A stretch of 46,634 bases of DNA, taken from Flavobacteriaceae bacterium. GTDB taxonomy: Bacteria > Bacteroidota > Bacteroidia > Flavobacteriales > Flavobacteriaceae. Both the position numbers and the translations under genes were made by a program. The notes beneath the pieces were generated by a model. It saw nothing but the letters and a program-made list of their open reading frames with translations. It had not been told where the DNA came from and made no database searches. Location of the stretch: assembly GCA_024638225.1 (NCBI GenBank), contig JAHEKR010000012.1, forward strand, positions 1 to 46,634. The letters are read 5' to 3'. Shown piece after piece: positions 3,738-36,731 of the stretch. Every line of letters begins with the position of its first letter. The stretch's first letter is position 1.

Positions 3738-4673
3738 ATGAATTTATTCGAAAAAGAGGCCTTTTCCCTGTTTGCTTATCAACATGAGCATAATCCCGTC
3801 TATAGATCCTATTGTGATTTGATCAATATCAATCCAGCGGATGTACATGCGCTCACAGATATTCCCTTTCTTCCAATCGAGTTATTTAAATCACATCGAG
3901 TAAGTTGTACAGATAAAGAAGAAATTGTGTTTGAAAGTTCCGGCACTGGAGGTATCGTTAGTAAGCATTATGTTAATTCGTTGGAGCATTATGTTCAAAG
4001 CTTTACTTCTTGTTTTTCCGAGTTTTACGGTAAGCCCGAAGACTACTTCATACTGGCTTTACTCCCAGGCTATTTGGAACGTCCCAATGCCTCGCTTGTC
4101 TACATGTGCCAAAACTTAATAGACCGAGCCCAAAAACCTATTAGCGGTTTTTACCTAAATGAATTTGACAGACTACATCAAACGCTTGCTCAGCTGAATA
4201 AACAACAAAAACCAACCTTGTTGATTGGTGTGAGTTTTGCACTTCTCGATTTTTGCGAAGCATATCCAATAAGGTGTACCAATACCATCATAATGGAGAC
4301 AGGCGGTATGAAAGGCAGACGGAAAGAATTGATACGTGAAGAGCTACATATGCGATTAAAACAAGGCTTTGGGGTGACCGAAATCCACAGTGAGTACGGA
4401 ATGACAGAACTATTATCACAAGCGTATTCGAAAGGAAAGGGTGTTTTTTATACACCGCAAAGCATGCGGGTATTTGTGCGTGATGTACGCGATCCCAAGC
4501 AAGTGACCCAAACAGGAACTGGTGGCCTTAACATCATAGACTTATCCAACAAGTCATCTTGTGCATTTATTGCTACCCAAGATTTAGGCAAATGTTACAC
4601 TGATGGAACTTTCGAAGTGTTGGGACGCTTTGACTCAGCTGATATTCGCGGGTGCTCGCTTATGACGGCTTGA
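3738..4673 (+). CDS. LuxE-like acyl-protein synthetase / acyl transferase
   Basis: Member of the LuxE/PaaK-like adenylate-forming superfamily. The best-known member, LuxE, activates fatty acids as acyl-AMP and passes them to its own cysteine; Bacteroidota copies have no known product. The nucleotide-binding signature is visible as [15 protein letters not shown], and the later adenylate-binding region as [16 protein letters not shown] start it at the ATG at 3738 ([12 protein letters not shown]), because family members begin near this FEKxAxxxF motif. An in-frame GTG at 3699 would add 13 unconvincing residues. It is alone on its strand, divergent from the two-component system and overlapping tyrS by 14 bases at the 3' end. 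No luxCDAB genes or carrier protein lie nearby. Confidence 0.8.
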
Positions 4674-17281: not shown

Positions 17282-17866
17282 ATGGAAAAGTTTCGTTGCG
17301 ATTGGTGCCTATCTAACCCTGTCTACATTGACTATCACGACACGGAATGGGGTGTGCCCATTTACGAGGACAAAAAACTATTTGAGGCCTTGTTACTCGA
17401 AACCTTTCAAGCAGGTTTATCTTGGTGGTCAGTACTTCAAAAACGCGCTAATTTTCGCAGGGCATTTCATGGCTTTAACCCAAAAAAAGTGGCGCAAATG
17501 ACCCCATACGACGTAGATATGTTGCTTCAAAACAAGGGAATCATCCGAAATAGAGGAAAAATAAAGGCTGCAATTACTAATGCCCAGTTGTTTGTACAAC
17601 TACAGCAGGAAGTAGGTAGCTTTAGTGATTTTATGTGGTCTTATACAGCTGGTAAGCCCATTCAAAATGCCTACCAGCAAACCAAAGAACTTCCGCAAAC
17701 GACCAAACTGGCTATTCAAATGAGTTCTGATTTAAAAAAACAAGGATTTAAATACATCGGTAAAATTACCATTTACGCCCATATGCAAGCCGTTGGTATG
17801 GTCAACGATCATGTAGTAGACTGCTTTAGACACAAAGAGATAGCTAGTCTTGGGGTAAATAATTAA
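17282..17866 (+). CDS. tag: DNA-3-methyladenine glycosylase I
   Basis: Base-excision repair glycosylase that removes 3-methyladenine, 194 aa. The N-terminus RCDWCLSNPVYIDYHDTEWGVP contains the first cysteine and histidine of the zinc site, and the C-terminus MVNDHVVDCFRH contains the second pair. The aromatic substrate pocket region LLLETFQAGLSWWSVLQKR is intact. It is the last gene of the ftsX operon, 4 bases after truB, and overlaps the convergent aat gene by 23 bases. With the alkyltransferase-like gene near position 1000 it is the second alkylation-repair gene in the window. Confidence 0.96.
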   Translation: MEKFRCDWCLSNPVYIDYHDTEWGVPIYEDKKLFEALLLETFQAGLSWWSVLQKRANFRRAFHGFNPKKVAQMTPYDVDMLLQNKGIIRNRGKIKAAITNAQLFVQLQQEVGSFSDFMWSYTAGKPIQNAYQQTKELPQTTKLAIQMSSDLKKQGFKYIGKITIYAHMQAVGMVNDHVVDCFRHKEIASLGVNN

Positions 17867-18482
17867 GAAAATCGTTGCGTGATATGGGAGCAGCTCCCAT
17901 ACTTGCCAGATGAGCCGTAGGAACTTGACAATCGATAAGTTTGTACTTATTTTTCTTTAATTCTTTAACTAAAAAAATGAGGGCAAGTTTACTTGAGTTA
18001 CTCGCCTTAGAAAACATACTTTCGCCACAAAACACTTCTCCAATGTCGATTCCGTAAAGTCCGCCTACCAATTCTGACCCATCCCAAACCTCAACTGAGT
18101 GCGCGTGACCTTGTTCATGGAGTACTCCGTAAACTTCCATAAGGCCATGGGTAATCCACGTCCCTGTTTGACCAAAACGTTTCACTCGTGCACAAGCAGT
18201 AACTACGTCATTAAAAGCTTTATTAAAGGTGACCGTGTAGGCGTTTTTACGCATAAAAACGCGCATGCTTTTTGATATTCTAAGCTGATCTGGAAATAGA
18301 ACCATACGTGGGTCCGGGCTCCACCAAATCAAAAATTCATCTTGTTCAAACCACGGAAAAATGCCCTTTTTGTAAGCAAGCAAGACACGGTCTGGATTTA
18401 AATCACCTCCAACAGCAACGATTCCCTCTTGGGTGGCCAAATGAGGCGAAGGAAAACGCAATTCTTCAGTAAGGTGATACAT
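17844..18482 (-). CDS. aat: Leucyl/phenylalanyl-tRNA--protein transferase
   Basis: Enzyme of the bacterial N-degron pathway. It moves Leu or Phe from tRNA onto proteins with N-terminal Arg or Lys, marking them for ClpS and ClpAP. The 212 aa include the family signatures FPSPHLATQEGIVAVGGDL, GIFPWFEQDEFLIWWSPDPRMVL and GGLYGIDIGEVFCGESMFS, followed by LIDCQVPTAHLASMGAAPI. It overlaps tag at the 3' ends by 23 bases. It lies 11 bases after the DUF3127 gene, so the two are probably co-transcribed. Confidence 0.97.
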   Translation of the reverse strand: MYHLTEELRFPSPHLATQEGIVAVGGDLNPDRVLLAYKKGIFPWFEQDEFLIWWSPDPRMVLFPDQLRISKSMRVFMRKNAYTVTFNKAFNDVVTACARVKRFGQTGTWITHGLMEVYGVLHEQGHAHSVEVWDGSELVGGLYGIDIGEVFCGESMFSKASNSSKLALIFLVKELKKNKYKLIDCQVPTAHLASMGAAPISRNDFLNYLPQD

Positions 18483-18493
18483 GATGATATACG

Positions 18494-18856
18494 CTAAAAG
18501 GGCAAGTCGTCGGGAGCTTCTTTATCGGTTTCGGGCATGGTTTCAAATGGAGGTGCTGCAGGTGGAGGTGTCGGCACATCTTCAACTGCATCAACACGCC
18601 ATCCTTGAATGGAGTTAAAATACTTGATTTCTCCTTGAGGACTTTGCCACTCACGTCCGCGTAAATTTATTCCTACCTTGATGCGTTGTCCAACAGCAAA
18701 AGAGTTCAAGAGACTGCATTTGTCTTGAACAAACTCAACAAGTAAATGTTGTGGGTATTGCTCCTCTGTAGTTAGAACCAATTCGCGCTTTTGAAAGCCA
18801 TTGGATCCGTATTCTTTTGTTTCGCCTATCTGCTTTATTTTTCCTGTAATTTCCAT
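18494..18856 (-). CDS. DUF3127 protein, SSB-like OB-fold with an SSB-type C-terminal tip
   Basis: Protein of 120 aa. Residues 1-90 match DUF3127 (MEITGKIKQIGETKEYGSN at the start, then LVLTTEEQYPQHLLVEF and VGINLRGREW) and have the look of a small beta-barrel OB fold. A Pro/Ala/Glu-rich disordered tail of about 30 residues follows, ending in DDLPF. This is the acidic-hydrophobic tip by which SSB recruits repair and replication proteins; the SSB encoded at 36273-36731 ends in DDDLPF. I infer a single-stranded nucleic-acid-binding protein that shares SSB's partners. No function is established for the family. It is divergent from the orphan kinase and upstream of aat. Confidence 0.85.
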   Translation of the reverse strand: MEITGKIKQIGETKEYGSNGFQKRELVLTTEEQYPQHLLVEFVQDKCSLLNSFAVGQRIKVGINLRGREWQSPQGEIKYFNSIQGWRVDAVEDVPTPPPAAPPFETMPETDKEAPDDLPF

Positions 18857-36272: not shown

Positions 36273-36731
36273 TTAAAAGGGCAAGTCATCATCGCTTGAT
36301 GGCTCGCTTGACTGTGTGGGCTGTTGCGGAGCAGCTTGTTGCTGTGTCGAAGGCTGCTGTGCTGAAGAAGCAGGACGTTCTGACCCGTCCGAGGGACGTT
36401 GTGTCAAAAAAGTAAAGTCATCTACATGAACTTCAGTAGTGTAGCGGTCTTTTCCGTCATCGCCTTGCCATTTACGAGTTTTGATTCTTCCTTCTACATA
36501 CACACGGTCGCCTTTATTGAGGTATTTTTCGCAAATTTCAGCTGCTTTGTTTCGAACGACTACATTGTGCCATTCGGTATTGGTTACTTTCTCACCCGTT
36601 TGTTTGCTGGTGTAGGTTTCGTTTGTGGCTATAGGGAATCTTCCTATGCAATTTCCCCCTTCGAAGTAGGTTACTTTAACGTCATCGCCCAAGTGGCCGA
36701 TGAGCATGACTTTATTTAGTGTTCCGCTCAT
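36273..36731 (-). CDS. ssb: Single-stranded DNA-binding protein
   Basis: SSB of 152 aa. The OB fold spans residues 1-110 (MSGTLNKVMLIGHLGDDVKV, TEWHNVVVRNKAAEICEKYLNKGDRVYVEGRI). A Gln/Pro/Ser-rich tail follows and ends in DDDLPF, the interaction tip for repair and replication proteins. It sits 5 bases before gldE and 26 bases after mutY on the same strand. The DUF3127 protein at 18494-18856 carries a matching tip. Confidence 0.97.
   Translation of the reverse strand: MSGTLNKVMLIGHLGDDVKVTYFEGGNCIGRFPIATNETYTSKQTGEKVTNTEWHNVVVRNKAAEICEKYLNKGDRVYVEGRIKTRKWQGDDGKDRYTTEVHVDDFTFLTQRPSDGSERPASSAQQPSTQQQAAPQQPTQSSEPSSDDDLPF

Follow-up and report, generated by a model that had tools for sequence, protein, structure and literature searches.

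The DUF3127 protein of a Flavobacteriaceae bacterium is probably a second single-stranded DNA-binding protein (SSB), which would bind single-stranded DNA (ssDNA) and recruit the partners of SSB. From its modelled structure and from sequence conservation, we put the probability of this reading at about 0.78. The gene lies on a stretch of 46,634 nucleotides (contig JAHEKR010000012.1 of assembly GCA_024638225.1) that was analyzed as a whole and is called the window here. A preliminary description of the window had suggested a second carrier of the SSB-type interaction tip, and this overall interpretation is supported by the conservation of the tail and by a predicted OB fold of the SSB type.

The DUF3127 gene and its surroundings

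Translation and Pfam confirmed that the gene at 18494 to 18856 codes for a DUF3127 protein of 120 amino acids that ends in DDLPF; the strand, which had not been given before, is minus. The protein matched Pfam PF11325 with an E-value of 8e-31 and 106.5 bits (curated cut-off, 27) and PHROG 4932 over residues 1 to 120 with 1.1e-43. The SSB of the window indeed ends in DDDLPF, and aat and tag were found next and close to the DUF3127 gene, as had been described. The features are as follows.

18494 to 18856, minus strand: DUF3127 gene, 120 amino acids, putative divergent SSB-like protein (ORF translation, Pfam, PHROG)
18587 to 18856, minus strand: predicted OB-fold domain, residues 1 to 90 of DUF3127 (AlphaFold2 model, structural matches to SSB and PriB)
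18512 to 18586, minus strand: disordered Pro/Glu-rich linker, residues 91 to 115, without conservation (low pLDDT, low bits)
18497 to 18511, minus strand: C-terminal tip DDLPF, residues 116 to 120 of DUF3127 (codon count and conservation)
17844 to 18482, minus strand: aat, 11 bases downstream of DUF3127 on the same strand
17282 to 17866: tag, beyond aat as seen from DUF3127
36273 to 36731, minus strand: classical SSB, 152 amino acids, tip DDDLPF (for comparison)

Of 80 close relatives, 69 have an aat match in the DUF3127 locus, versus 5 of 60 diverse loci, the flanks being shorter in the latter. By eye, DUF3127 has an alaS-like gene upstream in 6 loci and is divergent to a dnaN-like gene in 4 loci of family f11 (L150, L156, L161, L167). 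With aat in 5/60 diverse loci and the dnaN-like and alaS-like genes in only 4 and 6 loci, a conserved operon was rejected as a functional clue. Also, no operon with repair genes common to several families was found among the DUF3127 loci compared, which counts against a second SSB. In Nonlabens tegetincola (L025), a second, partial DUF3127 copy with the same tail lies downstream of the full one, in a frame that starts at about base 4555.

Conservation of the C-terminal tip

The 1,484,756 analyzed bases of the source genome (80.5% complete) contain codons for D-D-[FLIMV]-P-F followed by a stop 3 times, and 0 times when the sequence is read backwards; thus, the tip is more than chance. The three genes with this end are those of DUF3127, SSB and DnaB. 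Ten further genomes gave 21 such matches compared to 4 backward; by eye, 9 of the 21 were SSBs, 6 were DUF3127 proteins and 1 was DnaB, the rest being 3 further proteins and 2 frames of less than gene length. The codons of the tip differ among genomes and its residues are constant.

All 80 close relatives of the window protein end in DDLPF, but these are the best 80 of 572, mostly from marine Flavobacteriaceae, and the sample is biased to close kin. Among 102 distinct DUF3127 proteins from genomes spread over the phylum, 98 end in PF (55 in DDLPF, 41 in another hydrophobic residue plus PF, 2 in other PF ends) and 4 are tipless; all 4 belong to family f13, which speaks against a general role as a second SSB. 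The 102 proteins comprise the best-scoring ones and others chosen for spread or for weak scores, drawn from a set of 222 matching genomes. The count excludes two genes that are broken or cut (L402, L403), as well as the additional copies, second or short, of G045, G232, G290, G351 and G394.

Comparing tail and linker among homologues, a check proposed in the preliminary description, gave a clear difference: in 60 diverse DUF3127 proteins, counted from the end, the last five positions hold 2.8 to 4.1 bits versus 0.4 to 0.9 bits at positions −9 to −25. In an alignment of 52 sequences (the window protein and 51 of the 60), only the columns of G5, D45, G56, W86, P119 and F120 reach at least 90%, and the terminal P and F are each present in 50/52. 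The AlphaFold2 model has mean pLDDT values per ten-residue block of 56 to 63 over residues 91 to 120 versus 91 to 96 over residues 1 to 90, which bears out the earlier claim of a disordered Pro/Glu-rich tail.

Predicted OB fold and relationship to SSB

The AlphaFold2 model of the window protein (70 sequences, single chain) has a mean pLDDT of 85.3, and its strands and helix follow in OB order. The small β-barrel that had been claimed for the first part of the protein is thus predicted as an OB fold, with every block of residues 1 to 90 above 90. In a Foldseek search of the PDB, the 50 matches listed were all SSBs apart from one PriB; the best E-value was 9.8e-7, and 124 chains had E ≤ 0.001. 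VIA-align gave a Z score of 12.2 with the SSB of S. ruber (rmsd 2.4, 90 residues aligned), 11.9 with PriB (1woc_C; rmsd 3.4, 87 aligned), which is tied with it, and 10.8 with the SSB of E. coli (rmsd 2.9, 91 aligned). The suggested comparison with SSB structures hence points to an SSB-type OB fold.

A dedicated profile, for which 60 diverse DUF3127 proteins contributed their OB domains only, was run on the 5468 frames of the collected loci. Ranks 1 to 26 were occupied by SSBs with E-values of 6e-6 to 0.3, and these were 25 of the 31 SSBs present, since the window SSB (E 2e-4) was counted twice through a second locus. The remaining 6 of the 31 ranked among or below non-SSB frames, a result that argues against SSB kinship. 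The SSB of E. coli scored 15.5 bits with this profile and the DnaB of E. coli had no match to it. The OB-only profile replaced a first iterative profile, whose E-values to SSB were dropped because SSBs may have entered the model.

Two further results weigh against a second SSB: a profile-profile comparison of DUF3127 with SSB reached a probability of 75 to 85%, and the window protein had no match to the Pfam SSB model PF00436 at E ≤ 1. By the curated Pfam cut-off of 26 bits, DUF3127 is outside PF00436; six phage homologues match the model at 9.9 to 13.8 bits. A single-sequence search of PDB sequences yielded nothing useful and the A1 profile only weak matches (SSB, 0.26; IF3, 0.41), so the case for SSB rests on the fold and the dedicated OB-only profile.

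Aromatic residues occupy positions 21, 79 and 86 of DUF3127 in 52/52 diverse sequences and positions 34 and 70 in 47/52. Y34 and W70 align with a Y and a W of the window SSB; by eye, they would take the places of Trp40 and Trp88, which are named as base-stacking residues of E. coli SSB (PMC3991886). A mapping of Trp54 and Phe60 of E. coli SSB onto DUF3127 was not clean and was discarded. Against a second SSB, DUF3127 lacks the long loop of SSB (a 10-column gap in the profile-profile alignment), and the path of ssDNA may therefore differ.

Taken as a whole, DUF3127 is like bacterial SSBs (PF00436, TIGR00621) in the order of its OB fold, in a weak but specific profile similarity and in having a disordered linker with an acidic-hydrophobic-PF tip. 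It is unlike them in its shorter domain without the long loop, in being unmatched by the Pfam SSB model and in having a W86 of its own, a position in the last strand that is aromatic throughout (52/52). The SsbB-type second SSBs of Firmicutes are close SSB paralogues that stand beside the main SSB; DUF3127 would likewise be a second SSB, but of a far more divergent family.

Phage homologues

A tblastn search found the family in 119 phage records, most of them named for Bacteroidota hosts, and several RefSeq phage records label the homologue "single strand DNA binding protein." Five annotated phage regions were viewed. DUF3127 is adjoined by an Erf annealing protein and a YqaJ exonuclease in one region and by RecT in another; RusA and a DNA polymerase lie within 4 kb of it in the third, a primase/helicase and NinG are near it in the fourth, and NinG is near it in the fifth. 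A classical SSB (PF00436 over the cut-off) was found in 0 of 20 phage records with DUF3127, drawn from 67 viral loci, and these records may be fragments. The six PF00436 matches below the cut-off fall on the DUF3127 frames themselves. Also, the whole annotation of phage P12024L, in which many genes are hypothetical, names no other SSB. Among the 67 viral DUF3127 proteins, 28 end in DDLPF and 63 in F; 13 are shorter than 100 amino acids and tipless, so some phages are without the tail, which does not favor a second SSB.

An ssDNA-binding label for the phage homologues thus already exists. PHROG 4932, a phage "single strand DNA binding protein," is the same family as the window protein, but the label covers phage proteins and is silent on the tip, and the cellular gene is still listed under "unknown function" in Pfam. 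A DUF3127 match was also reported on the SSB of Pantoea phage AAS23, and hence hits to the family are on record outside Bacteroidota phages too. The earlier remark that such a role is not known to be described for DUF3127 therefore needs correction as to ssDNA binding, which is ascribed to phage homologues (PHROG 4932, RefSeq, AAS23). PF11325 was not mentioned in the literature searched, whose titles and abstracts held nothing relevant on a second SSB in Bacteroidota or on an SSB-tip mimic on DnaB. No account of the cellular DUF3127 as a second SSB, of its conserved tip or of a lineage with tailless SSB was found in this literature.

A family with tailless SSB

In family f2, which belongs to the same order and may be the Weeksellaceae, the best SSB ends directly behind the OB domain in 8/8 genomes (L364 to L370, L325), and DUF3127 ends in DDDLPF in 8/8. 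A further, divergent SSB that does have a tip occurs in two of these genomes (L371, L372); that these extra SSBs are perhaps mobile is a guess. In the remaining six genomes, four of which are each in one contig, no protein other than DUF3127 was found to combine an OB fold with the tip; G331 also gave a third SSB match, below the threshold (E 0.755). DUF3127 thus seems to be the main carrier of the docking tip in this family, and the earlier proposal that it competes for or extends the SSB interactome, though sound in direction, understates the situation there. In three genomes of the window's family, a tailless SSB and one with the tip occur together, and this suggests that the tip-bearing SSB was lost in f2. 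The reverse is seen in family f13, where DUF3127 is tipless in 4/4 genomes and SSB has the tip in 4/4. PMC3991886 mentions a short SSB in which the usual last residues are missing.

The survey of SSB tails read 24 of 28 loci. Some other SSBs, in family f4, have the odd ends DDLSF, GDLPY and QPGF. G091 and G150 were rejected as genomes with tipless SSB, since a short paralogue had been ranked best and their second SSBs, which end in RLPF and NLPF, carry the tip; residue −3 then becomes L/L. Loss of the SSB tip in G007 and G059 was likewise rejected as a case of complementation and treated as isolated: three congeners of G059 keep the tip, and G007 is without a congener for comparison. In G331, whose best SSB is tailless, a protein of 147 amino acids (L269, 1075 to 1518) that is unmatched in Pfam at E 0.01 ends in DDDLPF near a frame that by eye is like topoisomerase I.

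Residue −3 of the tip was compared between SSB and DUF3127 in 30 genomes. It agrees in 21 (15 L/L, 6 I/V with I/V) and is mixed in 1; in the other 8, one tip is missing, is of another kind or comes from another paralogue. That the residue tends to match in the two proteins is suggestive only, as there are close kin among the 30 genomes.

Proposed role and alternative explanations

In the mechanism that we propose, the OB domain would coat or sense ssDNA, as fold, profile and conserved aromatics suggest, and the flexible linker would present the acidic-hydrophobic-Pro-Phe tip at the C terminus. The tip could dock in the SSB-tip pockets of RecO, PriA or the helicase-binding domain of DnaG; in E. 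coli, the SSB tip is read by DnaG, Pol III chi, PriA, ExoI and RecO, among others (PMC5872125). Most of the genomes examined encode DUF3127 alongside a classical SSB with the tip; phages would employ it as their own SSB, and in f2 with its tailless main SSB it is the usual or only tip carrier with an OB fold. More tentatively, and with somewhat less than even odds, the docking code of SSB may have been handed to DUF3127, such that the SSB of f2 only coats and DUF3127 recruits, perhaps in mixed oligomers, while at the replication fork of Bacteroidota SSB, DUF3127 and DnaB would use one kind of tip and would compete for or share pockets such as that of DnaG.

The PriB match, tied with the best SSB, and the PriB-like size of DUF3127 would also fit a PriB-like accessory, a replication-restart factor of SSB fold that acts mainly with PriA, does not coat ssDNA and here has a tail. 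A man-made PriB-SSBc chimera with the same layout of OB domain and SSB tail bound ssDNA better and stimulated PriA (PMC8509808). However, natural PriB is reported to be tailless, whereas the tail of DUF3127 is present and conserved; the likeness to PriB, a single SSB-like OB domain, is here a structural one. Moreover, the tested phage records without classical SSB carry DUF3127, and in 2 of the 5 annotated regions it has an annealing protein as a neighbor, a setting more in keeping with an SSB; in f2, DUF3127 carries the very tip that the main SSB lacks. We consider a PriB-like accessory unlikely.

Two other explanations concern the tail alone, and both are very improbable. If the tip were a degradation signal and not a docking site, ClpXP would recognize the C-terminal LPF. 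In some strains of Streptococcus mutans the LPF of SsbA does suffice for degradation by ClpXP, but according to the same study the signal is not recognized in E. coli, S. gordonii or S. sanguinis. Also, a degron needs LPF alone, whereas in the 60 diverse DUF3127 proteins the two residues ahead of LPF are conserved as well, mostly as D-D, and 12 of the 60 have V or I at position −3. Alternatively, the tail might be an internal decoy only, with the acidic tip folding onto the OB groove and tuning ssDNA binding without any partner. In a crystal of K. pneumoniae SSB, a C-terminal segment occupies the ssDNA site, though not the tip itself; such a decoy needs charge but not the near-invariant terminal Pro-Phe.

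In bacterial DNA repair and replication, the SSB tip serves as an address label, and it is being pursued as a drug target. If DUF3127 is a second carrier, SSB-tip mutants and tip inhibitors in Bacteroidota could not be read by the E. coli picture. The family with tailless SSB would be a natural experiment on ssDNA coating versus partner recruitment, and a widespread "unknown" family, DUF3127, gains a testable function.

Distribution in Bacteroidota

PF11325 was searched for in the phylum of the window and in 14 control genomes. Of 395 genomes sampled from the phylum, 222 gave a match; 173 were without one, a fraction that counts against a general second SSB. A match is present in 96 genomes of the window's class, and among the misses listed two, G292 and G391, belong to this class; 153 misses fall outside the list, in which the genomes are apparently sorted by kinship. 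G292 and G391 remained empty even with a profile of 52 DUF3127 proteins, which again weighs against a second SSB. With this profile, ten Pfam-negative genomes outside the class gave 6 empty results and 4 weak matches (3.5e-6 to 1e-4), and true SSBs score in the same range. Among the 14 controls, only Bacteroides ihuae exceeded the PF11325 cut-off.

SSB-like tips on DnaB and other proteins

DnaB of the source genome (G000:C26, locus L181, 7 to 1518) ends in DDDMPF, an SSB-like tip. In 30 Bacteroidota genomes including the source (L276 to L305), 29 DnaB tails end in F and 23 in PF, but only 12 in a hydrophobic residue plus PF; E. coli DnaB ends in YDDE. The helicase-binding domain of E. coli DnaG is reported to bind both DnaB and the SSB tip. 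The end KKDDLPF was also seen on a SIR2-type candidate anti-phage defence protein (L267, 259 to 1518; PADLOC SIR2, 2e-86).
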